From NCBI GenBank assembly GCA_004335835.1, contig RWJK01000504.1, positions 28,071 through 92,070 on the forward strand: a stretch of 64,000 nucleotides of DNA, read 5' to 3'. A program made the translations under genes and the position numbers. The DNA is from Scenedesmus sp. ARA3 (Eukaryota; Chlorophyta; Chlorophyceae; Sphaeropleales; Scenedesmaceae). The notes under the pieces were generated by a model. That model searched no databases. It was not told the DNA's origin and saw nothing but the letters and a program-made list of their open reading frames with translations. Positions 1 to 64,000 of this stretch are shown here, piece by piece. Every line of letters begins with the position of its first letter. Within the stretch, counting starts at the first letter, position 1.

Positions 1-3
1 AGT

Positions 4-250
4 GAGCCCAGGCCTGCAAAGCAAGGGGAATCATAACACAAAGATGAGTTTGTTGGGTGACAAGAAGAGGACAAAGGGTGCACTTGTGGCTGGTGCTGGT
101 GGCTGGCCATGGCTGCCAGGGAGCCCAGGCCTGCAAAGCAAGGGGAATGACAAAGATGAGTTTGTTGGGTGACAAGAAGAGGACAGAGGGTGCACTTGTG
201 GCTGGTGCTGGTGGCTGGCCATGGCTGCTAGGGAGCTCAGGCCTGCAAAA
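4..250. repeat. Tandem duplication of the kinase's last exon and its 3' splice site
   Basis: The block beginning GAGCCCAGGCCTGC at 4 recurs at 121 (117 bp on) and again, truncated, as GAGCTCAGGCC at about 232. On the minus strand each copy starts with a TTTGCAG acceptor followed by the same exon sequence. Copy 1 has a 6-bp insertion relative to copy 2. This makes the exact 3' end of the kinase coding region ambiguous. Confidence 0.9.
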
Positions 251-3200
251 TAACAAAAGCAAGATAACAAATTGGTCAGACAATGCCAGGGAAAGACGCT
301 GTGACAGGTGATGCATATGCACAAGGTGTCATGCACGTGGTGGGGAGCCCTGCTTTGGATGAGGCACACAACACAAATGCAAAGGATGGGTTGTTGCACA
401 GGCGCAATGTTGAGTAACACACATTTGTGCTCCAAAAACCACCGCCAGCAGCCTCGCACAACTGATAGCAGGTTGCTACAACGCTTCTAATGATGTATGA
501 AAACGCGGCAATGCAGCAAGCTGCTGCACTCACCAGCCACGTTGCGTGAAGAGAAGCAGCGCGGCATGCCGGTCCTCTTTGCAGTCTTCTTCACTCGAGG
601 CGGCCCGCCAGCAGCACCCCCAGCCATGGCAGCAGCAGCAGCACCCGCAGCAGCTGCGCTATAATCCACACCACCCCCATATGCCAGTTGCTCCGGTGAC
701 ACTAGGCCTGCCAGGTAGTTTGCTGCTGCAGCTGCTGCTGCTGATGGCGGCATTGCGCCGCCTGCTGCTGCGGCTGCAGCAGCGGCGGCTGCTACTGCTG
801 CATTCAGCGAGCCAGATGCTGCAGGCGATGCAATGCCTCCCCGAGTTGATCCAGGAGGAGCAGATAGGGCAGGAGCAAGGCCGCCAGATGGCAGCACCTC
901 TGCTGCTGCTGCTGCATCGGCGTGCTGCATCCGCAGCGCATGATCGCTGCCTGCCGCCTCAACCTGCTGCTGCTGCTGCTGCTGCTGCAGGCCGCTGCTG
1001 GCTGCTGCTGCTGGCGCTGCTGCCGGCATCATCAGCTGCCGCTCCGGCTGATGCACTTGGAGGTAGGCCAGCACCTGACCCTCCATGCCCGCACGCCTGC
1101 AGCAGACAACATCAAGCAGCAAGCAAACAGAACGCAGCAGGGCACAAATCAGTTTAGTGAACGAGAGAGGGAGCTGCAGGTAGGCCAGCACCTGACCCTC
1201 CATGCCCGCGCGCCTGCAGCAGACAACATCAAGCAGCAAGCAAACAGAACGCAGCAGGGCACAAATCAGTTTAGCGAACGAGAGAGGGAGCTGCAGGTAG
1301 GCCAGCACCTGACCCTCCATGCCCGCGCGCCTGCAAGGCAAGGATACACCAAGCAGCATGCAGCAGAACATCAGTCAGCTGATAATCATTAGCTGAAGTC
1401 CCTGTTCAGCAGAGGGCATCCAGTAATGCGCCGCAGGCTGCTACCATTAAACCAAAGAGCACATCGGCATGCAAGCCTCACCTTGCATGCTCCAAGATCC
1501 AGGGGTGTGCCATGAGTGCTGCCAGGCTGCTGCGCTGCGCCGCAGGCTTGACCAGTGCGTCGCTGATGAAGGCAGCCAGCCCCGGTGACATGAACTCGGG
1601 GAAGCTGGGGGCACTGCCACGGATGGCGCGGATGGTCTCATCCCGCGTGGACTGCACGCGGCAAGAATGGGGCGAAGCAGCAGCAGCAACAAACAGCACG
1701 TGAGGCATTTAGTGTTGGAGCTGTCGCAAACGGATGGTCTCGCCGCACGGAGGCTGCGCTCACATTAGCTGCTGTATGAGCCCACCATGCAAAAGGGTGG
1801 TCGCCCCTGCCGGCTGAGATGCCACTCAACAGTCCCAGAAACACGCCTAAAAGCCCTCCCTGCCAAGAGTTGCGCTCACCATGACAGAGGGCGGCCGGCC
1901 CGCCAGCTCGTAGCGCATCACACGCCCAGGCGTCAAATGCCATGCCAACGCTGCCCCCAACCCCACCCTCCTGTGAAAGTAAAGACGTCTGCACACTCAC
2001 CATGCCGAAGGGTGGCCGGCCCACTGCCAGCTCGTAGGCCAGCACGCCCAGCGCCCATGCGTCCACTGCCGGGGTGTACCACAGCTCGCTGCGCTCCTTG
2101 TTGTCACTGGGCAGGTGCTTGTCGGGGCACACCAGCACCTGCAATCGATCAATGTGCGAGGCATAGTGACGAACAAGACAAGGCAGTGCGCACCAGCAGG
2201 CCAAGCCAAGCGCTGCAATGCGGATGCATGCCTCGCGCTATCAAAGCAATCACCCTGCCAGCTAAGTTGCAAACGCTTCTCTTGTCATCAACCACCAGGT
2301 AGGCACAGCACGGGCAAATGTCCCTCATCAACCAGACAGAACAGAACAAAAACATGGCACAGGCACAACGATCTGGGCTGTTATAACACAACAATAACGC
2401 GGCCGCACCTCAGGAGCCATGTAGTCCAGTGTTCCGAGGCGCGTCACAGGCCGCTCCATGACGTGGTTCACAGCAAGCCCAAAGTCTGCGGCAGCAGCAG
2501 CAGCAGCAGCAACATCGAAAGGGTCAGGCACACAGTGCGCTGGTTCTACAGTGGTCAACAGTTCCAGGCCAAACTGCCGCAGGTATGCTGGTGACTGTGC
2601 AAGCCAACTCGCCCATTGTCACGACACACCGGAAATATCCTTGCTGCTGTTCTACAGCATCCATCGCAGGTATGTAAACAGCGCCCCAGCCAACAAACCC
2701 TGCCACGCCACCTCCCTTGCCCCCAACCCACCTGCCAGCTTCAGCACCCGCCCCGCGGCAAACAGGGTGTTCTCTGGCTTGATGTCTCTGTGGATGAAGC
2801 CCGCGCTGTGCATGGCCAGCAGCGCACTCATCATGGGCAGCAGCACGCTGGTCACCAGCTGCGCCTCAGGCATGCGGCCCAGCGTGCGCTTCATCTCGTC
2901 AAACAAGTCGCCCTGCGGAATGTAACAATGTAACACCTTAGGTAAATCAACACCACAGAGAGGTTGTCATGTGACAAAGGCAGCGCGGTACAGGCATGCG
3001 GCCCAGCTTGCGCTTCACCTCGCCAAACAGGCCATCCTGCTCAGCGGTTCTGCAAAGTGCTATGTTTGATGTAAGGCTGTACTCATAACATACAGCTCCA
3101 ACACAGCAACGGATCACAGGGCTGCTAGCGCTGCTTCTGCTGCTGCTGCCTCACAACTGCTGCAAGCCTGCATTGTGGGTGCATGTCTGCGCAAGGGCAA

Positions 3201-5082
3201 GTCTGCTAGGGCAAGCAGCGCTGGCGCTCACCCCCTCCGCAAACTCCTGCAGCAGGTGCACCTTGTCGTTGTCCTCAAAGGCGGCGTACTGCGCAGCAGC
3301 AGCAGCAGGAGCAGCAGCACCAGCACCAGCATCTTAGCACAATGGGCGATGCACGGCCGTCTTTCGTCAGCATTGGTCCGTGCTCAGCAGCAGACCCTGA
3401 CCACCCAGCAAACCCTGCTGAAACTAAACCTCACCAGCGAAATTACGTTGGGGGTCCCAGCTGCGCGTGGATGCTGACCCTTTCCAAAGCCCTCAAACCC
3501 TGCAGAACCCAAACAAGCAGCAAAACCCTCCCTCACCAGCGCGATCACGTTGGGGTGGTCCAGCTGCGCATGGATGCTGATCTCTCTCGCCACCTGGCAG
3601 CGGTTCAGCGGGCTCAGCTTGCGCTTCTTGTAGGTCTTGATGGCCAGCGGCGCGCTTGTTTTCTTGCAGAAGGCGTACCACACAGTGGAGGCGTTGCCGG
3701 TGCCGATCTCCTTGACAAGCACAAAGTCGCGCACCGCCCTGGCGAGGAAAGTTGAGATTGAAATATTTACAGAAGAGATCCTTGCTGTGAGTAGCTGCGC
3801 TTGCTTACACTGTCGCTGCTGCTGCTGCTGCTGCTGCTGGTGGTGCCATACGCTGCTGCACGCTGCTTGCAATAGCCACCTGCACACGCGGTCAAGAATG
3901 ACGCCACTGCTGACTACGCCACTTGAACCCTTGCCCCACTGCTAAACTAACAAACGCAGCCTTTGCTGCATGTTGCTGCCTCTGCTGCTGCTGCTGCTGC
4001 TGCCCCTGCTGCTGCCCTCACCATTCCGTGCGCAGCCGCATGTTGTAGGGGCACCGATCAGTCACTGCCAGCACGCGCGTCACGCCCCTGTGAGACAAAC
4101 GACAGAACGACGCACAGCACATACGCAGCAACTCAGCTGCAAGCTCCAGTGCTGCTGCTGCTGCAGCTTCCCGCACAACTGCTTGGCAGATGGATTGGCA
4201 GCCGAGCATGCTGCTGCTCTGTAGCCTGCCCTGCTCAGCCGCTGGGTGAAGGTGCACAGCTGGCAGTTGGTAGCACCTGGCAGCCTGCGCCACATGCTGT
4301 TGCAACCATTTTAAGATACTCGAGCATTCTGCAGCTCCTCTGCTTGATCAGGCTTTTCGCACCCTGTGCGCTGCAGATTGCATCACTCCGTGCTGAAAAC
4401 TGGCGCTGCTTGCTGTGCTGCTGCGGGAACTCACGGAGGCAGGAAGTCGCATTTGAGCGACTCTGGCACCCAAATGCCTGTCGGGTACGGCTCCACGCCT
4501 ACACATAATTTAAAACACATACATAATAAATATGCAGCAAGCAAAGCGCTGCTTAGAGCTTGAGTGACCTGCTATTGCTGTGCAGCAAAAACCGCCAGAG
4601 CCATGCTACAGCTGCCTGCAGGACACTGGCTGTGTGTATGCATGCAATTGCTGCTGTGCTTGTTGCTGCAGGTGCACAAATTGAAGTTTGCGGCACTGAC
4701 AGCACAACTGTTGAAGGCTGATGTGTACAGTTTTGGGTCTGTAACTGGACCTGGCAGCAGTAGCAGCAGCAGCAGCTGTGGCTGCACCTGCCAGCACAGC
4801 AGCAGCAATTGCTTCCCCCGCACCTCCTTGCTGGTACCCTGCATCACACGGTGATGCCTGCCAGGGGCTTGTGATGCTCCTGTGCCATGCAATAACGGAA
4901 GATCAGGCCAGAGTGCCGAGAGCTGACTGATGTAAGCAGAACGCCAGCAGAAGGCCAGCAGGCAGCACTGGCCCTGCTGCTGGAGTACCCCCAAAAGTCA
5001 AGCTTATGATGTTCAATACATACCCGAATGCCGATGCCGCGGAATAGCTCTCAAAGCGACTGGCAGCTGCGACGCAAGCCAT
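31..5082 (-). CDS. Aurora/ALK-like Ser/Thr protein kinase with low-complexity C-terminal tail
   Basis: Twelve-exon model: 5082-5024, 4879-4824, 4498-4435, 4087-4022, 3738-3537, 3288-3232, 2912-2732, 2485-2409, 2138-2001, 1651-1482, 1096-534, 242-31. Phases close to 614 residues ending in TGA at 31-33. The catalytic domain covers about residues 85-357: glycine loop GTGNASTV (94-101), ATP-binding Lys116 in LAIK, catalytic HRDIKPEN with Asp211, DFG 229-231 and APE 252-254, with RLGTLDYMAPE in the activation segment. All catalytic residues are present, so it should be active. Green-algal Aurora-like kinases (the Chlamydomonas CALK type) share the activation-loop style; the subfamily call is inference. 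The tail (358-614) is rich in Ala and Gln. The in-frame ATG at 5112 is an alternative start. The last exon lies inside tandem repeats, so the true end may be beyond the left edge. Confidence 0.8.
1061..1340. repeat. 117-bp tandem repeat, about 2.4 copies, in frame in the kinase gene
   Basis: The segment starting AGGTAGGCCAGCACC occurs at 1061, 1178 and 1295, exactly 117 bp (39 codons) apart. It spans the CTGCAG acceptor and first codons of the eleventh kinase exon (GMEGQVLAYLQ). Because 117 is divisible by three, the copies form one open frame, so splice choice could add 39-residue units without a frameshift. Confidence 0.93.
1874..2052. repeat. Duplicated exon end and donor in a kinase intron
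   Basis: Plus-strand 1996-2052 (end of the exon 2001-2138 plus its GTGAGT donor) is echoed at about 1874-1932, roughly 120 bp away inside the intron. The copy retains a GTGAGC donor and a diverged version of the peptide ELAVGRPPFGM. Confidence 0.8.
2868..3041. repeat. Duplicated 5' end of the kinase HRD exon
   Basis: 2868-2917 (start of the exon 2732-2912 with its acceptor) is repeated at about 2991-3041, 123 bp upstream on the coding strand. The copy keeps an AG acceptor and a similar peptide (LFGEVKRKLGRMP against LFDEMKRTLGRMP). Confidence 0.85.
3429..3585. repeat. Duplicated 3' end of the kinase ATP-binding exon
   Basis: CCTCACCAGCG plus about 45 bp of exon end at 3531 is repeated at 3429, a 102-bp period. 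The intronic copy has accumulated substitutions, for example GGGGGTCCC where the used copy reads GGGGTGGTCC. Confidence 0.85.
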
Positions 5083-6954: not shown

Positions 6955-9900
6955 CTACTGCACGGCTGCTGCTGTTCCATTGAAGCCCTGCCCAGCCAGG
7001 GACCCCACTGCAGCGCTTGCAGCAGCACCTGCGCCCGCTGCTGCTGCCTTTGCCAGTCCTTGTACTCCCATGTGGGCCAGCACATAGTCATGGTAGTACA
7101 GAATCAGGCACATGGGTTGCCCAAGCACGCAGAAAGAGGCCCAGAAAATCATGTTGCCCAATGTGTCGCTTTTCAGCCGCTTGCGCATCATCTCTGTGAG
7201 GCTCACCAGTGGCACCTGACGGGGCGGGGCGTTACGTAACATGTTGTAACGTTTGGGGGAACGGCAGGAGGCGGCGCGGCAGGGGCAGCAGGGGCGGGGG
7301 CAGGTAGTTGTGAGAAAATTGCGGCTGAATACATTATGTTGTTTGCTGACGTGGCTGTGCCGCAGCAGCAGCAAGATGTGTGACAGTGCTGCAGCCATGT
7401 CAACTTTGCTGTACCACCCTGTTATCATCATGGCTATCATCACATGATTGATTTCTCTATTTTCATTTTCTCAGTCATGAAACGACTCTGAGAGCTTAAC
7501 TGGACGAGCCCCGCAGCATGCAAACACTCACGCTGCTGCTGTGGTGTATTACTTAGAAACATCACCGCCACTACCATTGAAGCATTATCTTCCATGCTGG
7601 CAACCCACCTGGAAGAGCATGCCCCAGAAGGCCCAGCCGCGCAGCATGCAACAGCTCACCCTGTTTTCATCATAATCATAATCACTAGTACTACTACAAT
7701 GTCCATCTCGTTGAAAACCCTGGAACCTCACCTGGAAGAGCATGCCCCAGAAGGCCCAGCCGCGCAGCATGCGCAGCGGCACCGCCACCGCCAGCTCGTG
7801 CATGACCGCGGACAGCCCAAACACCAGCAGCATGGCAGGGAACTTGCCCACGCGGCGCCGCATGAGCGGGAAGAACACGCTGCGCAGCATCCACTGCCAA
7901 GTGGAAAAATGTGAAGAAAAATGTGAAATGAGAAGATTAATGTGAAGAAACAAGGTGAATGACGGAATGACGGATTGCAAGCAGCCAAGGAGCACATTGA
8001 ATTGTACATCTCAGGTGCGCATGAGCAGGAGGCACATGCTGCTGCGCCGCATCCACTGCAGCGCAATGTTTTTGATGCGTGCAGCAAGAGGCAGAGATAC
8101 ATCAGTGGCGAAAGAACTGTTGGCGAAACTAGGAGCCTTGCCGTTAGACAAACTGCTTATCAAGCCTGCAACATAAGCTGCTCTGGCTGAGCACTCCCCC
8201 CCCCCAACTGTGATGTATGCACATGCACAGCAAGCTGCTCGCTCGCACCTTGTGCACAGGGATGTTCCACAGCCGCCAGTAGTCACCTAGGGTGGCCGCA
8301 TTCCACCACTCCTGCACGACGCGGCAGCAGCACAGCACAGCCGCGGCGTTGCACACGCAGCAATGAGGGCGTAAGCTGCAACCCATGCACAGCATCCATG
8401 GTATACAGGCGCTAAGGATGCCACAGCAGCTGGTGTGATGCATACTGAAGATTGAAGCAAAGCATAGCACAATTTTTTTGGTGCAAAGCCACAAAAGGCT
8501 AGCCCCCAGCGCACCTTGTAGAAGAGCCTGTCCCCAAACATCAGCAGCTCGCCGAGTATGTTCAGCCACAGGTGGATCCACCGGCTTACACATTACCAAC
8601 CAGTCAACCCCAGCTCATAAACCCTGCAATCCCGTGAACCCTTCTAAGACACCTTCATACCTTGTAGAAGAGCCGGTCACCAAACATCAGCAGCTCCCCG
8701 AGTATGTTCAGCCACAGGTGGAAGACCAGGTAGAACATTACTAACCAGTCTACCCCAGCTCGTAAACCCTGCAATCCCGTGAACCCTTCTATCGCACCCT
8801 CATACCTTGTAGAAGAGCCGGTCACCGAACATCAGCAGCTCGCCCAAGATGTTGAGCCAAAGGTGGAACACCAGGTAGAACATGACCAGCCAATGTGCCA
8901 CATTTGGCACTGACAGCCGCAGCAGCCGCTCCGTGAATCGCAGCAGGTTGGTCTCGTGCAGCGGCATCAGGCTGCTCTGCATCAGCGGCAGCAGGAACTG
9001 CACCTGCAGGACAAAGGCAATACAGAGAGATAGAGCGGTGAGCTGCAGTGGTGACAGCTTAGGTGCAGCGCAGCAAGTGCTTGTGTAGAGGCTGCTCTGC
9101 ATCAGCGGCAGCAGGAATTGCACCTGCAGCACAACAAGAGAGAAATACAGGGGCAAGTTGCAGAGGCAGCTGTTGTTGGGGTGCGACAGGTTGATCTCAG
9201 GTAGCAGCATGCAGCGGTGCAGCAGTGGCAGCAGCAACAGCACCTTCGGCTGGAACCAAAAGCCCGGCACTAGAGAGAAGGATTTCTAGCCGCAACTGTT
9301 GAGGTCCAGCACAGACATTTGCGCAGCACACATAAAGCATAGTCCCCGTGGGCAACCCAGTACCCTGTTGCACCGCGGCCTGCCACCACTTGCATGAACC
9401 CCACAGACTGCAGACTCTGCTCACTCCAACGCCAACACAGGCCACCACTGTTCAACTGCTCTACCCAACACCGACCACGCAAACGCAAGATTAAACAAGC
9501 ATCCTGTCCATGCCAGCCCCCGCCCACCTGCATGAAGCTCATGAGCAGCAGCGTGCCCAGCAGCAGCAGCACCCAGCGCCGCAGCAGCCGCAGCCGCCGC
9601 CGCTTCATCCTCGGGAAGTTCAGCTGGTACGTCAGCGTGGGAGCCAGCATGTAGTACGCCACGTCAGCAGCGCTGAGGTTTTGCGGGTAGGCGATAAACC
9701 CTGAGGCCGAGCCAAACCCTGACTCGCTGCCGCCCTGGTGGTTTTGGGTGTTGAGCCCCGCCGCAGCGATGGATGCGAACGGTGTGTCGGTTGCGGCGGT
9801 GGCTGGTGCGTCTGCGAGTGCTGCTGCCACTGCCGGGTTGTCGTGCGGCGCTGCTGCTGCTGCTGCTGCTGTATCGCTGGCTGCCCTGCTTCGGGATTGG

Positions 9901-12900
9901 CAGCGCAGCGTGGTGTTGCAGTGCGCATAGGTGCAGAGCTTCATGCAGGTCACAATGGACACCATGGTCAGGGCTGACGCCGGCAGCAGTGTTGACTGCA
10001 GCGTTGCAGCAGCAGCAGCAGCAGGAGGAGGAGGCGGGACAGAAGCACAGGTGATTGGTTGAAAGAGTGAATGCATGCTGTGGCTGCCAGTCACATGCAT
10101 GGCACTTTGCACTATGGTGGGAGCCACTGGTAAGCCTCAGCAGCAGCAACAACAGTGGCGGCAGTCGCACATTCATCGCGCACATATTGCCACATTGCCA
10201 CTTCTGTGCTGCTGCCATTCACACTCCACCTTCGGCTGCCAGCTGAAACACGCGACAATCCAGTCAACAACACTTGAAACCTGTGCCAAAAGCATCTCAT
10301 GACTCACCTTGTTGCACAGCACCATGCTGCAGGGCAGCAGCAGCGAGGCTTACAAACTGCACACACGCGTCCAGAGCTAGCAAACATCAGCCACAGGACA
10401 GCAAAGCCAGGCTGCCACAAGTCTGCATTGATGTGGACAGTGGCAGCCAATCTGCCGGTTTGCCACACACATACATGCCCCTGCTGCACAAAACCTCCAT
10501 CTATCAATTCCAACCAGCCACAAGCCATGCAAGATTGCAACATGACACACAGCACTGCTGGCATCACTCACCTTGTTGCACAGCACCATGCCGCAGGGCA
10601 GCAGCAGCGAGGCGCCCACATTCAAGACGTTGAGCAGGAACAGCAGCCACTCGTGCAGCGCAGCAGCAGACGCAAGCCGCCGCAATGCTGCTGCAGCAGC
10701 AACATCCTTCTTCATCAGGCCCGACCGCAGCTGCAGAGCAGCAGCAGCAGCAGCCGTGGCGGCAAAAGCAGCAGCAGCAGCAGCAGCAGCAGCAAGAGTC
10801 AGCTGCCTTGTCAACAAACACAGCATAGCAGGGCTTGTGCTGGCGCACCCAGCAGGCATACATATATACACAACAGCCACAGCGCAAGCCACAAATACAT
10901 CATCCTACAAGCAGCTCATGTTGCACACACAGTAACTACACAAACCACAAGTCCCAAATCTGCCCGCTCACCCGTGCTTCGCGCTGCAGCAGCACCACCC
11001 CCAGCCGCTCAATGCCCAGCGCAGCCAGGTAGAAGCCCATGCAGCCCAGCACTGCCACCCAGGTGACAGCGTCATCAGGGCTGCCTCTGCCCCGACAAAT
11101 CATGCTCACTGCCACACGCAACCAAAGCTCAAGACACACACACAAACACCATGTCACAGATGGTGAAGCACGTTGAAGCACGCAACGCTAGCCACACTCA
11201 ACCACACGATAAACACCAGCCCCTTACCCGTGCTTCACGCCGCAGCAGCACCACCCCAAGCCGCTCAATGCCCAATGCCGCCAAATAAAAGCCCATGCAG
11301 CCCAGCACTGCCGCCCAGGTGATGGCGTCATCAGGGCTGCTGAGGCCGCGCAGTGCCGCCTGCATGGAGGCCGGATCAACCTTGGCCTTCCAGCCGTAGG
11401 TGAAGATGTTGGACATGATCAGCCTGCAGTAGACACACAGCAGCAGCAACAGCCGCAGCAGCAGCCACAGCAGCGGCAGCACATGGTGAGTGGTGTAACA
11501 CCACGTTCGCCTGCATGGAGGCTGGATCAACCTTGGCCTTCCAGCCGTAGGTGAAGATGTTGGACATGATCAGCCTCCAACAAACACAGCAGCAGCAGCG
11601 CAGGTCCAGCATTCATTGCCACATCTGATGCTTCAAGTACATGTACTACATGTTAGTGACGCACCTGATGTTGGTGGCCAGCAGCACCACCACGCCCAGG
11701 TTCAACATCCAAACATCCAAACATAATTGCAGGCTGAAGCAGCAACATGTTTTGCAGAAACTGAATTGCATGTTGAGCACCTAGTACATGTAACACACCT
11801 GATGTTGGTGGCCAGCAGCACCACCACGCCCAGGTTCAGCAGCCCCTCGTGCCGCGAGATGCGCCAGTCATCCTGCCACGTCAGCACCGAATCCTTCACC
11901 ACAGTGTGCACCGCAGACGCACCATCCAGCTGCTGCCGCCGAGGCCTGCTGCCGCCACCTGCCTTGCTGCCACCCCCTGCTGCTGCTGCTGCTGCTCCTG
12001 CTGCTGCCGCATCCACTGCTGCTGGCGCCGCATCCCCTGCTGCTGCTGAAGTGAGGCCGTCAGGGCCGGCGGCGGGAAGGCCTGAGGTTGAGGTTTGGGC
12101 TGACAGCTGCGCACTGACAGCTGTACTGCCTACTGCTGCGAGCTGCGGCTGTACTGCCTCGTCCAAGCTGAGGTGGGTTGTCAGTTCAGCGGCAGGCGCT
12201 TCGTCATCGTCATCGGCTGTGTCGCCGCCCACCACCCACCTGCACAAGAAGTGCGGAGTAAAGTGCAAAGGTTCACACAGGTTTCAGGGTTTGATGGTCA
12301 GCCTCAGGTTCTAGAGCCCGGGTCGGACTTTGAAAATGACGCTGACTGACCCTGGCACTGGGGCGATGCTTCACCACTGATTGCATGTTGCACAGCTGGC
12401 TCCGCCATACCATGCGTCAATGTTGCAGCACAGGTTTGCTGCTCTTGCAAGCTGAGATTGCAGACTATGACTGCACAGCATGAGCAGCAGCAGCCCCGCA
12501 CCTCCTGTTTGAGTATGTGCGGGACAGCATGCGCCGCAGCTGCTGCAGGTGCGTGCCACCAGGGCCAACCTGGGAGCCCTGCCGCTGCTGCTGCTGCTGC
12601 TGCTGCTGCGGCTGCTGCTGCTGCAACACCTCCCCCACACTCTCCCCTCCATGGAAAGTAGCCGGCCTACGCAGCTTCACTTTCGGCCCTGTAGCAGTAC
12701 CCACTGCGCTGTCATCAACTGCTGCAGCCTTCTTTCCTGCTGCCCCTGGTCCCGCCGGCGGCTTGTGCGCTGCATGCTGCGGCCGCACACGCACCACACT
12801 GATGTCGCTATCCATGCTGTCAGCCGGCGACTGCGGCCGGTAACTCAACGCCCTGCCAAACGACAGCAGCCGCTGCCGCAGCCCTAGCCCACCACCATCT

Positions 12901-14602: not shown

Positions 14603-14716
14603 GTTGAGCTTGTGCTGCTGCTCTGTGCCGTGAGAGCAAGGCTCGCAACCACCCGGCGCGCTCGAAGCAAGCTACACAAGGACAAGCTCGGTGAGGTGAG
14701 CCATCTTTACAGCACA
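14603..14716. promoter_or_regulatory. Short bidirectional promoter interval
   Basis: Only 114 bp separate the DGAT1 start codon (minus) from the start codon of the 97-residue gene (plus). Both 5' UTRs and any core promoters must fit here or overlap transcribed sequence. No TATA box was recognised. Confidence 0.5.
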
Positions 14717-33153: not shown

Positions 33154-33184
<31 letters not shown>

Positions 33185-41785: not shown

Positions 41786-41818
<33 letters not shown>

Positions 41819-43985: not shown

Positions 43986-44016
<31 letters not shown>

Positions 44017-47666: not shown

Positions 47667-48532
47667 TGGCTGTTTGCAGAATCATTCATTGTTTGTGTAC
47701 TTGCAGCTGCATGCAGGACGCTCCGTACGGGCGCGGTTGCAGTGAACGTGGCGCTGTGTAGGTGGTGTGCCACTGTTGCAGCCAGCAGTTTGCCGTGCTG
47801 AGCAAGCACGCTGGTACTCTTGTGTCTTGCTGTCGCCTTGTGTGACCGTGAGCACCCCCGATGGAGACCTGTTTGGCTTGTCGCAAGTCATGAAGCGTGA
47901 ACTACGTTGCAGTAAAAAAACTATGTTGCAGTAGTACTGTCGTTCAGCTCTTGTCCACTAGAGCCATGGCAGAAGGGTAGCATCAGATCTGGCTGGTGGA
48001 GAGAGAAAGGGGCACTGGTCGTAATGTCCTTGTGTGTTAAGCGACAAACAAGCCGGTTGCGCCATGCTCTGCCATATTACCACTGGAACACGGAACACAA
48101 ATGCCTGAGATCCTGCATTGACGGCTGTGAATGCAGTCAAAAGTTGCAAGCACACCTCCGTGCTGCAACCTGTGACACCACCAACCTGATTGCAAAGCGG
48201 CATGCTGAGTCGCCACTGGCTACTACACAGCCCAGCCACTGACTACCACCGGCAGCCAACCCGGCCGCCGCACTCTGATCATCAAAATGCAATGCCTATG
48301 CACGCCGTGTGCGGCAAGCTTGCGCAACCTAAGGTGTTGGTTGCACACATCTTGCAGCTATCACCGTGGGCGCTACACCTCGCGATGCATGATGCAGCAC
48401 ACCTGGCAGCAAATCAATTCTGTTGTGTTTCTGGAACAAGCGGTGGCCTCACAACACCAGCAGCCCCAGCAAGTCAAGGTCCACCAGCTGCTGCACCACC
48501 AGCATGCTAGGTGGAGCGCAACTGTCAGCAAA
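47667..48532. other. 3' regions of two convergent genes, with a duplicated gene tail
   Basis: Between the pseudo-subtilase stop and the F-box-like gene stop. The only recognisable feature is a diverged copy of the last coding segment of the F-box-like gene at about 48415-48505. Confidence 0.55.
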
Positions 48533-48612
48533 TCATTCATGTTGTGTTCCCCGAAACAAGCGGTGTCCCCACAACACCAGCAGCCCCAGCAAGTCAAGGT
48601 CCCCCAGCTGCT
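48415..48612. repeat. Duplicated tail of the F-box-like gene
   Basis: AACACCAGCAGCCCCAGCAAGTCAAGGTCC and flanking bases occur at about 48451-48496 and 48565-48613, a 114-bp period. The 48415 copy carries an in-frame stop (TGA) where the coding copy reads TGG, so it cannot extend the protein in the same frame. Confidence 0.88.
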
Positions 48613-51600
48613 GCACCTGCCTCACGCAGTAGCGCTGCATCAGCTGCGCACCTGCAGGCAGCTGCTCTGCTGCCACTACTGCTGCCAGCACTGCCTTAGC
48701 CCTGGCCAAGTCTGCTGCACTGCTGCCTGGGTGCAAACCATGCTGCAGCCAGTCACTCAGCAGGCACTCATCATTAGGTGTGATGTTTAGCAGCAGCAGC
48801 GCAGTCTCAGCAGCAAGCTCAGCAAAAACAGGGCGCCCAGGCAGCTGCTGCTGCCGGTGCGCCTGCAGCTGCAGCAAATCCGCACGCTGCTGCTCAGGTT
48901 GCCTGCTGACAGCATTGCTAATCGGCGTGCACCGCTGCTGCAGCAAGTCCTGCAGTGCTGCCTTTGCAGCGTTGTGTGCAGAGCCCCACAGCCGCATCTG
49001 CTGCTGCGGCTGCAGCGCCCAGGCCAGCAGCTGCGGCCGCCGCAGCTCAACTGCTGCCTGGGCAACTAGCCGGCCCCATGGCAGCCGCGGCGGCTGCGGC
49101 GTCACCGGTGGCCCGGTGACAAACGCAGGATCACCCAGCAGCCGCTGCAGCGGCGCAACATCTTCCGCATCTGCTGTTGCTGCTGCTGCCGGGGTTCCTG
49201 CAACCAGCATGCCTGATGTCAGGTACACGCTCAGCCCGTTGGCCGCCACGCGATCAGACATGATCGACCGGGAGTGGTTCGCCACCAGCTCAAGCAGGCA
49301 CTGCTGCCACAGCGGCAGCGGCCCCAGCTGTGCCTGCTGCGGCACTGGAATGCTGCGCTCCCCGGCATCCAGCCGTGCCTGCAGCTGCAGCAGCACTGTT
49401 GCATTAGAATTGTCCTCCTGCGGCAGAGGCTCTGGCTCATCTGCATCCTGCTGATCTGCCACGTTTGCGATTGCATCTGCTTCAAGCTCTGCAATCTCTG
49501 CCTCAGGAGCCCCCGCCTGCTGCAGCGCCTGCACCACCTGCTGCACCTGCAGCAGCGCTGCGTCTGCCTGCGCCTGCATCTGGTTCTGCTGCTGCTGCTC
49601 AGCGATCAGCTGCTGCTGTTCAGCATTCTGCTGCTGCTGCTGCTGCTCAGCATTCAGCTGCTGCACCAGCTGCTGCATGGGGTTCAGCGGCTGCTGCTGC
49701 TGGACAGCTGCAGCGTTGCCAACAGCAGCATTGTTTTTCGCATCCGGAGCTGCATCGTCGCCGTCATCATCATATCCTTTGTCATCAGTGCTGCTGCTGC
49801 TATCATCATCCTCGTCGTGATCTTCACCGTCGCCTTCTTCATTATACTGGCGCTCCTGTATGGCTGAGACAAGCGCTCTGCGAGCAGCGCCGCGCATCTG
49901 CTGTGCTGTCGCTGCCTCGTCCTGCGCCGCCATCAGCGTGTGCTGCACAGCGCGCAGCAGCTTCTCGCGGCGCTGCTGCTGCATCTCTGGAGGCGTGAAG
50001 GCAGCATGGAGTGCCACGAAATTGTCCAGTCGCTGCATGAACAAGCGCTGCAGCAGCTGCCAGGGGGGGCCCAGCTCCTCTGCTAGGCTCCCTAGAGTTA
50101 CTGCACGGCCCTGGAATCCGCCAGAATGGCTGGCAGCAGCAGCGGCGTCTGCAGCGTGCGCTTCTGTTGCAAGCGGCAGTCACAGCAGTGGCAGTTGCGG
50201 CGCTGGAGTCACAAGGTGAATATGAACAAGGCACACGTGGGTGCAGAATGTGACAGCAAGTGACGTGGTGGATTGCTGCTTCTGGCTGCTTCCGAAGCAG
50301 GCGACGCGCAACAAGAGAAACTGCACACCCATGCAGCAATGAGCACAATCAAGGCGTCCACTCATTCAAATTTGAAACTTAAATAGGCCGCGCACCGCCA
50401 AGCAAGCTGCTTCACAGCACAAAATCTGATGTGCTTATTACAGCAATGCTGCCTACACTGCTGCTGCTGGTGCCGTCTCGACTGCAGGGGGCAGGCTCAA
50501 GAGCATTTCCAGCAGGTGAAGTCAACACGCCGACACGCATCTGCTGACTCACCTTGAGATCCACAAAAGCATTGCTGACAAAGCACACCAGCCGCTGCAG
50601 CTGAGCCACAGCAGCAGCATCGCCCGCAGAGCATGGCCTGCGCAGGTGCCCGCCAATGCTGCTTGAAAGGAAGCCACCTGCCGTCCATTTCAGGGCCTCC
50701 TGCCGTACCCCACCCAAGCCCTGCACAATGTTGTGTAGCTGCAAGGCGCGCGCAAAGTCCCCTGCTTCGTTGGCCGCTCTCATGGAAGCTTTGAGTGCGC
50801 AGTACGCATTCTGCTGCTGCTCTGGCGGTACCAGCTGCTGCTGCTGCAGCCACGCCACCCTTGCTGCAGGCAACCGCCACCAGTGAAGCTCCCAGGGCTG
50901 GCTGCGTTAAACAGCAGCAACACAAAACAGCAGCCTGCTGTTGATGTCAGTCCCTGACGTGATGCGACTTCGTGCTGCCCACTGTGCAGCTGCATCAGCC
51001 TCTAGCGCAGGGTGCTCTGTCCCACGGCGCCTTGCAGGAACCGGCGCGCGCTGGTACTGCCGCAGTGCTGCCTCCCTGCCCTGCTGCACCACCAGGTGCT
51101 GCCACAGCAGGTCTGCCATTTGCAGCCTGGTTGCATCCTCTGCTGCCTGCCACTGCTGCTGCTGGCTGCTGCCGGGGTTCTGGCTTGCCTCGCCAGCCCT
51201 GCTGGGCAGTACCAAGTGCAGCGCTGAGGTCAGCTGCTGCAGGGACAAGCAGGACCAATCTAAGACCGGTAAGACCACAGCTGCTGCTTGCTCTTGCAGC
51301 TCTTGCTTTTCCACCTCATCCTGCTGCCGCTGCTGCTGCTGCTGCTGCTGTTGATGGGTGCTCTGATCTGCCTGCAGCAGCTGCCGCCAGACCTGCAGGT
51401 TGCCTGCTTCCGCAGCAGCCTCCGGCAGCACTGGCAGCTGCTGACGTGGCGTTGCTGCTGCCACATTTAGCAGCACGCTCAGCACCGGCGTACAGCCGCT
51501 GCTGCAGGCCGCCTTGTAGGCTGGCCGCATGTTGGCTGGCTTGCGCTGCTTGGCCGTCAGCGCCTGCAGCAGCTGCGACACAACACCTGCGGTGGCAGCA

Positions 51601-52997: not shown

Positions 52998-53038
<41 letters not shown>

Positions 53039-57321: not shown

Positions 57322-59409
57322 ATGCAGTCGACCATGCTGCACTCCAGCAGCCACATCAGCAGAAGCTGCAGAAAAGTAAATGCAGTACACATAAATAGTT
57401 TGCCTCATGCGAGGGTGGTCAGGCGCGCAAATGCGCGCTCGCCAGTGGCACAAGCAGCAGCAGCACCAGCAGCATCAGAAGACCGGCCTACAACACCGGG
57501 ATATTACTTCCGAGAAATGTCGGCATGGCCCACAGATGTTCCAATTGTGCAGCATGACCCTGAAAAGGAGAGTTATGTAGACCTAGTGATTGCAGGCGCG
57601 GGCCCTAGTGGCCTAGCAGTGGGCGAGCGAGTAGCACGAGCTGGATACAGGGTCTGCATAATAGATCCTCAGCCGCTGGGCATTTGGCCCAACAACTACG
57701 GCGTCTGGTGCGATGAATTTGAAGCCATGGGCCTGAGCGACTGCTTGGAGGTCATCTGGCCCAAGGCAAAGGTGTTCCTGGACAGCGACAACCTAGGCGA
57801 GAAGTGAGTTCATGCTTGCAGGAAACCTCTAGCGTGGCCTGCTGGGCCAAAGGTAGCAGGCCAGCAGGTGGTTGCAGGCCTGGTATTGCAGCTGCTGTGC
57901 CAGGCTGCATGCAGGGTGCGATGCAGCAACACAGCCACCTCATTGAAGCAGCTGCTTGTATCAATTGGCATCATACAGCAGTCCTTAGCTGCGTTTGCAG
58001 TCACCTATTCAAGTCATGAGCGCACGCAGCTGTGTGTATCAATGTCGCGCCTAGCCAGTCATCTTGCTTTCACATCACATGGCCCAACTAGCTTGTGCCT
58101 TCTATGCTGTCATCATCTTACAATGTCATATGTCTTGACACTTGCCATAATTTTTTTCTTTCTATGTTGTCTGTATTTCATTCTGCGCCAGGTTCCTGCA
58201 GCGGCCGTATGGGCGTGTTGACCGGCCTAAGCTGAAGCGCACGCTGCTGGAGCGATGTGTAGCAGCTGGTGAGGCGGCAGCTGGCTGATGTTGAAACTGT
58301 CGGAAATCTTGGGGAAATAGTTGTGCCTGCAGCGGGCAAGCGAGCAGCAGTCAACTGCAAGCAACAGCAGCATTCCTGCAGGTCAGGCGCAGTGGTAGCG
58401 GTGCCATCAGTTGCTGCGGTAGAGTAGGGATCTCGCCCTGCAGGAAACACAGGATTTCAAGTAGCGTTGGGGTCGAAATACGCTTGTCTTGCTGCTGCTG
58501 TTGCTGCTGCCGCAGGTGTCACCTTCATGACAGGCAAGGTGGACAGCGTCAGCCACGGCAGTGGCGTGTCAACAGTCAAGCTGCAGGACAGCGAGGCCAG
58601 CATCAGCGGGGCGCTGGTGCTGGACGCGACAGGGCACAGCCGGCGGCTGGTGCAGTTTGACAAAAAGTTTGACCCTGGGTACCAGGGCGCGTACGGCATC
58701 ATCGCAGGTGGGCAAAGCTTGGGTAGCTATGGCAGATGCTGATGTGTTTAGCAAAGGGGTTCTTGACAAGAAGTTTGACCCGGGGTACCAGGGCGCGTAC
58801 GGCATCATTGCGGGTGGGCATGGTTTAGTTGGTTATGGCAGATGCTGATGTATTTAGCAGGGGGAGTGCAGTTTGAGAAATGATCTGACCCCGGGTACTA
58901 GGGCGCGTACGGCATCATCGCAGGTGAGCAGCCGTAGAGCTGTGAATGTTCGGCAGGGAGTGTCGTTGGAGCTCTGCACGCCATGTGTGGGTCCAGAAGG
59001 TGCAGGGTAGCTGCCAGTGCCGTCCGTGCTGTGAGCGGGAATATGCCTGCGCTCCTTGTCTTCATGCTGTGAATGTCAGAGGCTCAATGTTGTGACAGTA
59101 CTGGCGTCCAACCTTACTGGCGTTGAAAGCTGTTGCTGCTGCTGCTGCTGCTGCTGCAGAGGTGGAGAGCCACCCCTTTGAGCTGGACACCATGCTGTTC
59201 ATGGACTGGCGCGACGACCACCTGGCAGGCGAGCCTGAGATCAAGGCGCGCAATGACAAGCTGCCCACCTTCCTCTACGCCATGCCCTTCAGCAAGACCA
59301 AGGTACGGCAGCGCAGCAGGCAACACAAATAAATAACGTGGGGCGCTGCAGCAACTAAGCTGACTTCTGCAACAACAGCAGTGGCAGCGAAACAAGTTTG
59401 CAACACAGC

Positions 59410-59448
<39 letters not shown>

Positions 59449-59695
59449 ACAACAGCAACGTTCTGACAGCGGTGTTTCAGCAGGACCAAGGTGCGGCAGC
59501 ACAGCAAGATGCAGCCAGCCAAGCGTGATATCAGCAACATGCCAGGTGACAGTGACAGTGCCACATGCATGCTGCCCACCTTCCTCTACGCCATGCCCTT
59601 CAGCAAGACCAAGGTGCGGCAGCGCAGCAGCATGATGCAGCGCTGGTCTGCTGCAGCAACCAAGGGCAGCAATAGCATCGGTGCCGCACGAAGCT

Positions 59696-59752
<57 letters not shown>

Positions 59753-60591
59753 GGCAACGACGGACAGCGGCGTTTCTGTTGTCATCAATGGCAGCAACTT
59801 GTGATGACACCATCGTGTGTCAGAATCCCAAGAGTATCACTTGCTGCATGCTTGCTACTGGCAGGTGTTCCTGGAGGAGACGTCGCTGGTGGCGCGGCCC
59901 GCGGTTGACTTCCCTGACCTGAAGCAGCGGCTGGACGCGCGCATGAAGCACCTAGGCATCAAGGTGAGCGGCTTTGCGACACACTTTAACATTAGTTGTG
60001 ACAGCAGCTGAATATCTCCACAGATTTCTGTAAGTTTTCATCTTATAACCTGCACAGAACCACATACCATGTTGCTTTGATGGACCTGCCGTGGAACTGT
60101 GCAGTTACCTAAGAAATGGATGTCACACGCATAATTCTCTTCCCATGTGTTGCGCTGTGCAGGTCAAGTCCATTGAGGAGGAGGAGTACTGCCTGATCCC
60201 CATGGGCGGCGTGCTGCCCACACACCCGCAGCGCGTGCTGGGCATTGGCGGCACGGCAGGCATGGTGCACCCCTCAACAGGTGCGGTCAAAATGACAGTT
60301 TCAACAAGTAGACTACAAAGCGCGTGAAACAAGATACCCATGTCACAACCGTGCCAGCAGCTTTGTAAGATGCTGCACCACATATTGCCTGCGTTGTGGA
60401 GCACTGGCCGTCGATCTGCTGCAAAATGCACACCACCATGTTATATAACATCTTATGTAACATGTTGTGTAACAACTTGCTACTGCAGGCTTCATGGTGA
60501 GCCGTATGCTGGGCGTGGCGCCCACCATTGCTGATGCCATCGTGGAGCAGCTGTCCAAGCCGTGCGACAAGGCGGTGGATGCAGGTGAGGC

Positions 60592-60645
<54 letters not shown>

Positions 60646-60696
60646 CTTCGATGGAAATCGTGTTGCATATGCATCGCGCAAGCAGCAGGCAAAGGC

Positions 60697-60788
<92 letters not shown>

Positions 60789-61898
60789 TGTCAGGATGCA
60801 GGTGAGGCAGCAGCAGCAGCATGCCACATCTCGCGCGCCAATTCTGCTGCATGTTTGATCCCACCTGCTGCACAATTTGATCATCACAGCATTTTCATGC
60901 AATTTACCTATGCGTTTTGCGTCTTGCTGCAGGTGCATCCGGCCGCCCCGCCAGCGAGGCTGAGGCAGCCGCCATGTCTGCTGCCGTGTGGCGTGCCGCA
61001 TGGCCGGTGGAGCGGCTGCGGCAGCGCGCCTTCTTCACCTTTGGCATGGACGTGCTGCTGAAGCTCAACCTGCAGGTGTGTGCGGTATTATCACTTGTCT
61101 TTGCTATGATGTTGGCACACAAAGCATGCACAGACTGCTTTGACCACCTGTACGCTAATGATGAGAGAGCCCCTTGATGCGAGTATTCATGGCGTAACTG
61201 CTGCCTTGTCTGCTGCTTGTCTTGCCGTTCTCCCCGTCGCCTCTCCCGTGCACTGACTTCGGCAGGAGACGCGCTCCTTCTTCAACGCGTTCTTCAGCCT
61301 GTCGGCCTTCCACTGGCACGGCTTCCTCAGCGCACGCCTCGGCTTCATGCAGCTCATCGGTGAGGCGACGCAGCAGGCTTCATGCAGACTGCGTAGCACA
61401 CATCGTCTCGGTGTCATGCGCATGCGCATTTAATACACCAGCATGCAGCTGCATTGAGCTTCATGCCGCGCGTTATATGTACTGTCCTGGCAGGCTTGGC
61501 AGCTGCAAGAGCGCAGCAGTCAAAGGTGACATGGTGGCTCTGCTTCACCTCTGCTTCACCTCATGCACTGTCACCTTGTCGCTCGCACGTGGTTGGTGCT
61601 GTCTGCCCTCTTTACCTTTGCCCCGCCCCGTGCTCAATTCCGCTGACCACATTTGCTCTTTTGCTGTCCACCATTCTTGCTGTCTGCTGCAGCCTTTGGC
61701 CTGAGCCTGTTTGCCAACAGCAGCAACCAGGCGCGCGCTGACCTGCTGGTGAAGGGCCTGCCAGGCCTGCTGGGCATGCTGCTGGAGCTTGCCCCGACCA
61801 TGGGTGACTACTATGGTGTGAGGAAGGAGCAGAAAGCGGCGGCAGCAGCAGCGCGCGCGCAGCCAGCAGCAGCACCCGCACCCATGTCTACACGGTGA
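57322..61898 (+). CDS. LCYB: Lycopene beta-cyclase, plastid
   Basis: Converts lycopene via gamma-carotene to beta-carotene in the plastid by cyclising both ends. Ten exons: 57322-57803, 58192-58268, 58516-58707, 59160-59302, 59865-59963, 60163-60280, 60489-60584, 60933-61075, 61266-61359, 61693-61898; phases close to 549 residues. Residues 1 to about 55 are Ser/Arg/Ala-rich, a transit peptide. The FAD Rossmann motif is DLVIAGAGPSGLAVGERVA (GAGPSG 92-97). Further signatures are IWPNNYGVWCDEFEAMGL, LDATGHSR, FDPGYQGAYGIIAEVE, DTMLFMDWRD, FLYAMPFSKTKVFLEETSLV with the catalytic FLEET (300-304), GGTAGMVHPSTGFMVSRML and FHWHGFLSARLGFM. All key motifs are intact. The C-terminus after VRKEQ is an Ala/Pro tail. 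Three introns or flanks carry copies of exon ends, and two introns carry long CAG tracts. Confidence 0.97.
58645..58930. repeat. Triplicated end of LCYB exon 3 with donor
   Basis: The used end (about 58657-58712, TTTGACCCTGGGTACCAGGG onward) recurs at about 58763-58818 and, more decayed, at about 58876-58926; periods near 106 and 113 bp. Copy 2 differs from the exon mostly at synonymous positions. Copy 3 has TAG for CAG and a deletion. All three keep a GTGxGC donor. Confidence 0.93.
59265..59625. repeat. Duplicated end of LCYB exon 4
   Basis: CTGCCCACCTTCCTCTACGC through GACCAAGGT is identical at about 59262-59304 and 59571-59615. A fragment of the same end (AGGACCAAGGTGCGGCAGC) occurs near 59481. 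The intron after exon 4 therefore holds one complete and one partial extra donor-bearing exon end. Confidence 0.92.
59408..59749 (+). repeat. CAG tracts in LCYB intron 4
   Basis: A CAG run covers about 59409-59447 and a pure (CAG)18 covers 59696-59749, both inside the intron between exons 4 and 5. Confidence 0.95.
60594..60787 (+). repeat. Long CAG tracts in LCYB intron 7
   Basis: A pure (CAG)17 at 60594-60644 begins 9 bp inside the intron. After a 53-bp interruption comes a pure (CAG)30 at 60698-60787. The counts were read directly from the sequence. Confidence 0.96.
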
Positions 61899-62044
61899 TT
61901 GCTCATTGCTGCAGCGCGTGAAGTTTGAAGCTGGCACCCACTATGGGTGACTATTACGGCGTGAGGAAGGAGCAGGAAGCGGCAGCAGCAGCAGCACAGC
62001 GCGCGCAGCCGGCAGCTGCGCCCGCACCCATGTCGACCCGGTGA
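61781..62044 (+). repeat. Tandem duplication of the LCYB C-terminal coding end
   Basis: The last 38 codons and stop of LCYB (61781-61898) are repeated as 61928-62044, a period of 142 bp. The second copy keeps the open frame from KLAPTMGDYYGVRKEQ to the TGA at 62042-62044. It differs at about a dozen synonymous sites, one Lys-to-Glu change and one inserted codon in the Ala run. Confidence 0.93.
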
Positions 62045-63462
62045 TTGGTGCGCAGATGCAGTTGATGGAGGGATTAAGTGGAGTGCGGTTGGTGGCGCTG
62101 GCGAGCGGAGTGCTGTGTCATGCAGAGGTGGCAGGAAACCAGAGGGTGACCGTTGTATGAATGGCTGCGGTTGTATAACTTTTGACTGCATCGTGTTGCG
62201 TCGTCCAGTGGCAGAGGAGTGTGCGAATTGCATGGCACGGCACAGCTTGCATTACAACATGGCTTGATCAGTGATACGATGATGAGCATGCATCACAGGG
62301 TCATTAGATGACGCCATTACGTTCTGGTGTTGAGGGTCAAAGATAATGCCGCTTTTGCCACTTGCTGTGCTTGAAGCGCGTTGCTTGTGCTTTGTTAACT
62401 ATGTTGCCTTGCAGCAATGATTCTGGTGCTGTGCAGCAGAACTGGGGGGATTGTGAAAGAGCACTGGAAGCAGGTGTACAGACAGCAGGCACACGGGACA
62501 GGCTTTTATTGACATTGTGCTGCTGGTGGTGAGGCTAAAGCAATTGAACATCATGAATCTGTGGAACTCAACTCATTGTGCGCCAGTTCTGAGCTGTAGA
62601 TTGCTTGTGGTTGGCGGATCAACATGGCATGTGACACGCTGTGCACTACACTGTACACTGGCAGTGTTGCTGGAGCAGCAGCACAGTGGAGCAGCGATGT
62701 CTGCATTTGCCGTTTTGGTTGGGCCAGTGGAGATGCGTTGTCGAGTAAGTAATTGATCTCGGAATGCAGGATGGAAGTGGGCTTGGAGCCGGAGGCTGGT
62801 TCGCGCTGACATCATGCTTGTGTGATCACAGCCAACTTTGGACGAGCACCCTCAACTTGTGCTCTCTTGCAAGCGTCTCGATCTTCGTCCCCACCGAGGC
62901 AGTTTTACAAAGAAACCTTGATATACGTTCGCTGATTCGGCGCATCGCGAGCGGTTAAGTTTGCCTTAGCTCACTTAAACAAGCTAGGCTACGCCGAGCG
63001 CGCCTGCCATTATCAATTGCCGAGTTGATTACAGCTGGTGCAAAGAAACAGCAGTGATGGATTGTTCGTCGAAGTTGAAACTCCTGTGACGAATGGCATC
63101 TGTGGCAGTTTCGTCCTGTCCACCTGCCCCTGCGACAGCAGGTGTGCCAACGATCCACCGTCGAGCAGCAGAAACAGACCAGCAAAACCACGCAAACAAT
63201 TGTTTGTTGGGGTGCATTTTCATTGCGCCGCGTCCCACGTCGAGCCCGGCTTGCGTGTGTGACAACAGCTGACCCTCTGCCCTGGCAGTCCGCATACAGC
63301 TGCCCACGATCACGCCAAGCACCACGCTATCCAAGAACTTGTTTTTTGTATGTCAACTATCCTAGTAAGAGATCATTTCGTGTTCAACATGCTCAATTGC
63401 ACGATCATTTGGCACCTGAACTGCTTTCCTTCCTGCTTTATTCCTGCCTGCACTGTTCACAG
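62045..63462. other. Region between LCYB and the primase-like exon; upstream exons unresolved
   Basis: About 1.4 kb. It should hold the LCYB 3' UTR and the 5' part of the next gene. Frames such as 63038-63262 (plus) and 63029-63334 (minus) were seen but could not be joined to the downstream exon with confidence. Confidence 0.4.
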
Positions 63463-64000
63463 CTGCGTGACGTGCGATATGTAACCAGTCATGTTCTAGA
63501 GAATGAAGTCAACCCTGGAGTGAGTGGCGCGCTGTGTGAGCCGGGAAAGGCGAAAAGTGTTACGAGAAGATCAATAGACGCGCATGGACGGGTGTTTAAT
63601 CATGCACATGCATCTAGCATTGAGGCTGCTGCACATGCTGCAGCATCATCGTATTTAAGCAAAAATGAGGTGGTCACAGACGGCTGGTCAGTGCGGCCTT
63701 TTTTTGACTTGGAATACAGCACGACTTGCAATCCACTGCGAAATTGTGATGATGCCATGTTGACCGCACTGTTGGAGTGCATCCATCAAGTGGCCTTAGA
63801 GGCATTGGGTTTTGAAGTGCAGCGCACGATTGTGTTGGACAGCAGCAACACTGTCAAGTTCTCATTGCATGTGATTGTGCACTTGCACAACGGTTACGCC
63901 TTGCGTACCATCAAGGATGCCCAGTGCTTTGCACAGTTGGTTGTTGCATTGCTGCCGAATGAGCTGCATCATATCACCAGTTCAACAGGCGGACAGCAGA
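63463..64000 (+). CDS. PrimPol-like archaeo-eukaryotic primase (partial, runs off right edge)
   Basis: An exon opens after the acceptor CTGTTCACAG at 63453-63462 and stays open to the end of the window (about 179 codons). It contains WSVRPFFDLEYSTTCNP and TIVLDSSNTVKFSLHVIVH. PrimPol enzymes and related viral and element primases share a DxE metal-binding motif in a (Y/F)FDLE context and a downstream LDSSxxxKFSxH motif; both match. Such enzymes start DNA chains and extend them past lesions or stalled forks. The first exons and the C-terminal zinc-binding part are outside or unresolved. It may be the cellular PrimPol or a primase of a mobile element or large DNA virus; the window cannot decide. 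Confidence 0.7.
   Translation, partial: MRDVRYVTSHVLENEVNPGVSGALCEPGKAKSVTRRSIDAHGRVFNHAHASSIEAAAHAAASSYLSKNEVVTDGWSVRPFFDLEYSTTCNPLRNCDDAMLTALLECIHQVALEALGFEVQRTIVLDSSNTVKFSLHVIVHLHNGYALRTIKDAQCFAQLVVALLPNELHHITSSTGGQQ

Follow-up and report, generated by a model that had tools for sequence, protein, structure and literature searches.

Copies of exon edges in the window

The window analysed here is a stretch of 64,000 nucleotides (nt) of the green alga Scenedesmus sp. ARA3 (C345:28071-92070, contig RWJK01000504.1) within an assembly that totals 87.3 Mb in 1,567 contigs. It harbours genes in which short pieces of sequence from exon ends recur as direct copies, mostly in the adjacent intron. 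Local direct-repeat loci were defined by self-alignment as non-redundant pairs with a spacing of 80-320 that passed filters for length, complexity and self-overlap. In total, 22 such loci were detected in the window (lengths about 49-235 bp, spacing 102-311), located in the genes for a kinase, DGAT1, RPS16, GT4, an F-box-like protein and LCYB. The short duplications at exon edges noticed in a first-pass annotation are thus real. That annotation had each of them span a splice junction, which holds for 20 of the 22 loci if predicted ends of coding sequences (CDS) are included; in these gene models, however, locus 1-249 lies in an intron only and 1875-2070 in an exon only, and 61783-62047 lies at the LCYB stop codon. 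RPS9, likewise named as a carrier, has a shorter repeat pair (37022-37169) that falls below the complexity filter of the later counts.

In the kinase gene (reverse strand), the acceptor-side edge of exon 1096-534 is present in three copies with a period of 117 (1058..1369), those at 1213 and 1330 retaining the GCAG. The acceptor-side edge of exon 2912-2732 is copied once (2867..3040; spacing 124, 86 % identity), the alignment beginning 7 nt within the exon, and the donor-side edge of exon 3738-3537 likewise (3429..3580; spacing 102), with GTGAGG following both copies. A Pfam scan of stop-masked whole-strand translations of positions 1-4800 yielded no match.

The conserved region of DGAT1 (MBOAT family, PF03062; 7072..11899, reverse strand) comprises exons 11899-11799, 11423-11228, 10730-10572, 9995-9528, 9003-8806, 8311-8249, 7893-7732 and 7215-7072. 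The whole gene model (6955-14602) starts with a region that by eye resembles a PH domain, and the homologues P0003, P0004, P0005 and P0010 carry PF00169 together with PF03062. In the hand-modelled gene, all seven junctions are ungapped against the transcriptome-derived protein P0001; six of the seven introns hold a scored edge copy, and the seventh a degenerate one recognized by eye only. Donor edges are copied into the intron from exon 7893-7732 (7597..7772; spacing 123; exon part identical; GTGAGG / GTGGGT), exon 10730-10572 (10298..10613; spacing 264, 96 % identity), exon 11423-11228 (10964..11340; about 120 nt, 88 % identity) and exon 11899-11799 (11656..11844; spacing 134; GTGTGT / GTGCGT). 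That of exon 9003-8806 occurs in three copies with steps of 145 and 146 (8513..8892); here spacers 1 and 2 are homologous to each other and the outer flank is not. Upstream copies of acceptor edges belong to exon 9003-8806 (8969..9166; spacing 120), exon 11423-11228 (11357..11597; spacing 151) and, in the upstream part of the gene model, exon 13187-12502 (13123..13337; spacing 147). In intron 1 the outer acceptor copy (11574) reads GGAG versus the used GCAG, a decayed site next to a 45-nt exon edge that is otherwise identical. Codon changes between exon and copy are mainly silent: 9 synonymous and no non-synonymous changes in 29 codons (8513..8892, exon versus next copy), 9 and 3 in 37 codons (10964..11340), and 7 differences, all of them at the third codon position (13123..13337).

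The RPS16 gene (Ribosomal_S9 domain, forward strand) has its predicted model end copied 120 nt downstream (22284..22476); judged by the C-terminus of the family, this end is probably a splice edge and not the genuine stop. In GT4 (reverse strand), donor edges are copied from exon 30329-30097 (29946..30143; spacing 137; GTGAGG / GTGAGC; 1 synonymous difference in 15 codons) and exon 31600-31412 (31158..31529; about 120 nt, spacing 248, with an in-frame TAA in the copy), and acceptor edges from exon 30802-30669 (30763..30970; spacing 120; outer copy GCAA, not GCAG) and exon 33625-33522 (33574..33747; spacing 114). GT4 and two paralogues (C515:50801-53000, L035; C1053:82401-84200, L036) carry edge copies at three different intron positions (tblastn, by eye), and the place of a copy therefore seems to be set by the position of the border and not by the protein sequence. 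The intron positions of these paralogues within the same protein region seem to differ and may be shifting or newly gained. A further duplication at a predicted exon edge lies in the F-box-like gene region (48385..48617, reverse strand; spacing 119, 85 % identity).

LCYB (lycopene beta-cyclase, forward strand) is 99 % identical over the aligned part to OEZ85_003051 of Tetradesmus obliquus (the search table lists 95 % identity with 88 % of the query covered), and the alga is accordingly likely to be T. obliquus or very closely related to it. Two joins in the query were made by hand, and only junction 58707, which is ungapped against the T. obliquus protein, counts as checked. The donor edge at this junction is present in three copies with steps of 106 and 110 (58657..58930), again with homologous spacers 1 and 2 and a non-homologous outer flank; that at junction 59302 is copied 311 nt downstream, with an additional middle copy (59257..59776). 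At 61783..62047, the CDS end including the stop codon is copied directly downstream of the stop. Among 37 codons, 13 synonymous and 2 non-synonymous differences separate the two C-terminal copies, for which reason the spare CDS end looks as if it had been functional for a long time; the T. obliquus protein is nearer to the first copy and supports the position of the stop. CAG/CTG repeats are very frequent in the window (e.g., 59406-59447, 59696-59749 and 60593-60821), and in another stretch of the genome (L019) they make up the spacers between copies.

Preference for exon edges

Counts beyond the window are based on a sample of 24 stretches of the same genome (273,820 bp in total). After filtering, 204 direct repeat pairs and 1 inverted pair were obtained. 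Looser filters applied to a smaller sample also gave 204 direct pairs, along with 10 inverted ones, of which 8 were palindromes over one place. One stretch (C1000:10001-20000, L023) contains at about 1-4200 a long tandem coding-like array of many diverged units, unlike the edge arrays; it supplies 63 of the 204 direct pairs and was left out of the spacing histogram (141 pairs) and of every later count. A gene finder trained on the sample itself predicted 51 genes with 272 introns. Such programs can take intronic copies for exons, as happened here in DGAT1; since some introns were split at copies in this way, edges were taken anew from the 228 introns that lie between strong exons. Low-complexity edges were dropped from the edge-copy test described below and from the list of copies between strong exons. 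In a protein search with ADH, none of the 120 matches listed (of 7,857) carried the name T. obliquus.

A predicted splice junction or CDS end lies within a copy at 66 of the 81 loci in the sample, versus 29 ± 4 under random placement (maximum 44 in 1000 trials) or 32 ± 4 if placement is random within the same stretch. The preference for junctions beyond random duplication, as claimed at first pass, is accordingly borne out. It is complete among the most similar loci, where all 12 with at least 93 % identity hold a junction or CDS end (3.5 ± 1.5 under random placement). The other 15 loci are intergenic or unannotated (6), intron-only (3), mixed (4) or exon-only (2).

The same preference emerged when 45-nt exon edges were aligned with their own intron, a score of at least 20 counting as a copy. 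Copies were found for the last 45 nt of the exon in 21 of 172 cases and for its first 45 nt in 17 of 182. Edges of other genes gave 0 in 1,048 trials, reverse complements 0 in 354 and the end of the next exon 0 in 124. Within the exon, pieces 50-95 and 100-145 nt from the donor gave 6/140 and 4/100, and those at the same distances from the acceptor 0/136 and 2/83. Intron sequence beside splice sites matched the rest of its intron in 3/273 cases, and all intron tiles matched the next 320 nt in 27/691, copies inside arrays included; exon and intergenic tiles gave 7/336 and 7/316. An equal density of duplications in intergenic, mid-intron and mid-exon DNA was thus not found within the sample.

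These counts bear on mere tolerance, offered at first pass as the simpler account, by which duplications arise everywhere, survive where harmless and remain recognizable for longer if they contain exon sequence. Exon-only loci are indeed rare (2/81), and where intron sequence aligns its divergence (14.7 %) is like that of intronic exon-edge copies (14.8 %). However, intron-only and intergenic loci should be equally tolerable and are yet rare; neither class occurs among the 12 loci of highest similarity, in which decay could not have concealed them. Tolerance is for this reason insufficient, and exon and flank divergence are moreover decoupled (see below); we regard this explanation as improbable.

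The CDS end is also copied past the predicted stop in 7 of 28 genes, and the CDS start ahead of the predicted start in 3 of 28, although predicted ends are uncertain: among the 7 stop-side cases the RPS16 end is probably a splice edge, and one case in L005 depends on a weak exon. Since a like copy follows the LCYB stop codon, the arrangement suggests that it is the border between constrained and unconstrained sequence that matters and not the chemistry of splicing.

Structure and divergence of the arrays

Between strong exons, 40 donor-side and 29 acceptor-side copies were identified. The junction is reached exactly by 59 of the 69 alignments and to within 3 nt by 66. Among the 40 donor cases, the first two intron bases are matched in 38 and 39, respectively, and among the 29 acceptor cases the last two are matched in 29 and 28; splice-site scores of copies equal those of real sites, as expected from copying. 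The 66 copies within 3 nt occupy 48 junction sides, with one extra copy on 35 sides and more on 13. Unit spacing is 99-151 nt in 56/66 and 217-311 in 10/66. In the histogram of all 141 pairs, none is spaced below 80, 1 falls at 80-90 and 3 at 90-100, followed by 11, 15 and 17 per 10 nt up to 130 and a second peak at 220-260.

Near 100 nt, the lower limit resembles a read length in common use, and one published T. obliquus draft (about 108 Mb, 1,368 scaffolds; a different assembly) used 101-bp reads and gap filling. Chimeric haplotype joins or unmerged read overlaps could create false duplications of about one read length. Such duplicates should be nearly identical, but exon and copy differ on average by 9.1 % and intronic copies among each other by 14.8 %; the differences include substitutions, indels and a few stop codons (8 in the 2,362 codons of 99 pairs that partly overlap). 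Of the 21 pairs spaced 195-320, a middle copy was detected in 12; it is clear in 4 more, weak in 1 and absent from 4. One array contains seven copies, and the exon edges are present in DGAT1, at LCYB junction 58707 and in a xylose isomerase piece (L024) that matches solved structures. An assembly artefact is on these grounds quite improbable.

A role in generating introns or splice options, also raised at first pass, fares worse still. A duplication across an intron-exon boundary in potato did create an intron (PMC4974935). Here, however, the copies lie within existing introns. The one-period structure expected from such an origin occurs in 5/66 (introns of 60-200 nt), of which two belong to a single L019 array and three adjoin a weak predicted exon (score 1-4). 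The DGAT1 junctions and LCYB 58707 align without gaps to proteins of relatives. Use of the copies as splice options looks unlikely in that their distance from the exon edge is a multiple of three in 21/66 cases (19/66 for unit spacings), i.e. without preference, and only 8/66 could be retained in an open frame. Intron gain or alternative splicing as the explanation is very improbable.

The arrays take the form E(sE)n-b, in which E is the exon edge with its splice site, s an intron-like spacer and b the intron end beyond the outermost copy. The clearest example is a seven-copy donor-edge array with steps of 130-137 in a 1,026-nt intron (L017, reverse-complement 8268-9068). The median reach of homology in the 48 outermost pairs is 48.5 nt on the exon side and 9.5 nt on the intron side. 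Intron homology does not exceed 25 nt in 38 of them, with E being 81-100 % identical, and is longer in 10. Homology continues beyond the splice consensus to about +6 to +11 at donors (21 pairs) and -5 to -8 at acceptors (17 pairs). Owing to this decoupling of exon and flank divergence, plain tandem duplication with subsequent steady decay was discarded, and duplication of whole units with a homologous outer flank is not what these 38 pairs display. In 8 of 13 multi-copy arrays, the flanks of the exon-attached and the next copy are homologous (z at least 4); the outermost flank is non-homologous in 7 of these 8, that at 1058-1369 falling just under the line (3.8), and the array edge is alike too in one.

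The end b is an authentic-looking intron end and not random sequence, and is usually unalignable with s. Pyrimidine content beside outer acceptor copies (0.653; n = 17) resembles that of real acceptors (0.638; 205) rather than random intron positions (0.514; 594; p = 9e-7) or interior GCAG (0.493; 852). Some spacers and outer flanks are remote homologues under two nulls (donor p = 0.018 and 0.18; acceptor p = 0.003 and 0.015). When eight spacers were compared with the whole genome, each matched only itself (8 matches), and capture from elsewhere in the nuclear assembly was rejected; 25 spacers compared with the 273.8 kb sample gave only self, own-array or short-stretch matches.

Most copies stop 5-11 nt past the splice site with the other end variable, spacing is narrow, and the 12 most similar loci all lie at edges. 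These features would fit copying targeted to junctions, e.g. templated insertion at R-loop or stalled-fork breaks, that pastes about 57 nt around a splice site some 60 nt away in the intron. Polypyrimidine tracts in the outer acceptor flanks are, in contrast, unexpected at random intron positions, the LCYB copy downstream of the stop codon lacks a splice site, and the codon changes described below show a synonymous bias above a neutral-copy model. Such a mechanism is, in our view, unlikely.

Mismatches between copies favour one codon-like phase (591/1,127 versus 529 ± 9 simulated; 105 pairs). Across the 651 codons of the 38 outermost pairs whose flank homology is short, 98 changed codons are synonymous and 75 non-synonymous, with 2 stops. 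The resulting synonymous fraction of 0.566 (0.564 in 18 inner copies) lies between 0.37-0.40 simulated for a copy neutral from birth and 0.77-0.79 for constraint on both copies; the 10 pairs with longer flank homology reach 0.795 (35 and 9 of 208 codons), like the model with both constrained. Because of this intermediate position, the copies have likely been functional for part of their history or been refreshed from a functional copy.

An alternative is an origin from two diverged versions of one junction (from different alleles, strains or a hybrid partner) that unequal recombination has placed head to tail. Both s and b would then be genuine intron ends, and E would differ mainly at synonymous sites since both versions were functional. 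The authentic-looking outer acceptor flanks, the drop of identity at the splice site as between orthologous junctions and the LCYB C-terminal copies, with T. obliquus nearer to the first, agree with this scenario. Yet the assembly yielded no second version for 4 genes (960 aa), nor for 7000-13500 among the 40 candidates scored out of 655, a list filled by simple repeats. Many pairs combine near-zero synonymous differences with unalignable flanks, divergence within DGAT1 is uneven, and arrays of up to seven copies require a further process. We consider this origin rather unlikely.

Possible origin and comparison with known systems

The explanation tentatively favoured here, to which we assign slightly less than an even chance, is that arrays straddling a border persist by virtue of splicing at the exon-attached copy and are kept similar by recurrent recombination. 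An initial tandem duplication across the coding/non-coding border would be followed by unequal exchange, slippage or gene conversion among the E copies. Selection on the used exon edge may anchor this exchange, keeping E, and s within the array, homogeneous, and the outer edge of the array would diverge with the inner units staying alike. Splicing at the exon-attached junction would turn the other copies into intron and lengthen it.

Several points weigh against this explanation. Exchange between copies is deduced from one genome, and at about 50 nt the repeats are short for gene conversion to be efficient. In 5 of 13 multi-copy arrays no homologous inner spacers were found, among them that of xylose isomerase, where one pair reached z 5.5 under other settings. 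Synonymous divergence within DGAT1 varies between 18/66 and 3/74 codons (p = 0.0001, with post hoc grouping). The gene models were trained on the same sequence as was tested, leaving some circularity, and checks against outside proteins cover DGAT1 and parts of LCYB and xylose isomerase. Concerted evolution alone explains neither the rarity of intron-only loci (3/81) nor why unit size has a lower bound at about 90-100 nt, which leaves room for a junction-targeted process or for recombination between diverged versions. It is also possible, if somewhat doubtful, that junctions are hot spots of duplication with a step of about 100-150 nt, at which the edge and its splice site are repeatedly copied and introns grow from their ends inward.

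Edge copies are still visible in 43 of 228 introns, about one in five. These introns have a median length of 494 nt versus 258 nt for the 185 without copies, and the copies likely lengthen them; long introns, on the other hand, offer more room for copies, which may account for the difference and thus speaks against this view. A published comparison gives a mean intron length of 462 bp for T. obliquus versus 230-302 in four other chlorophycean algae (PMC5966456), which fits lengthening driven by copies. The origin of intron sequence and its growth are usually untraceable. In this alga, a source is visible as exon ends in the adjacent intron, with a defined step and boundary. If the explanation given above is true, it would provide a system for the study of intron lengthening, of the choice between near-identical splice sites and of recombination across exon borders.

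In minisatellite-like arrays under concerted evolution, units are alike inside and diverged at the array edge, as in 7 of the 13 multi-copy arrays here; the algal arrays differ by straddling a splice junction with an exon copy under selection. Mutually exclusive exons would have both splice sites on every copy and keep the frame; in the algal copies a splice site was seen only on the junction side (by eye, in part of the alignments), and 8/66 could be retained in frame. The AGGT tandem-duplication model shares with the present case a duplicated sequence that holds splice-site motifs, but it predicts a one-period intron between two AGGT copies, and the algal pattern is otherwise. Among the matches listed in the literature search, no title or abstract opening names exon-edge copying as a genome-wide feature; PMC5255914 is also among the literature compared. 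Introners (cf. PMC9860276) likewise affect many introns and show direct repeats around intron-like sequence. The algal spacers, in contrast, match only themselves (8/8), no dispersed family was found, and the repeats are the local exon edge; with a median of 48.5 nt of exon, they are not target-site duplications of introners. Intron gain at staggered double-strand breaks in Daphnia is similar in that direct repeats flank an insert (PMC3443670), and differs from the algal repeats, which measure tens to more than 100 bases and are tied to existing junctions. A close likeness is found in potato, where a tandem duplication over an intron-exon boundary carries the splice site and the copies have diverged (PMC4974935). 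That case is a single event with a new intron, whereas in the alga both donor and acceptor sides are affected. Here, exon ends sit inside existing introns at dozens of junctions, with no sign of a new intron.

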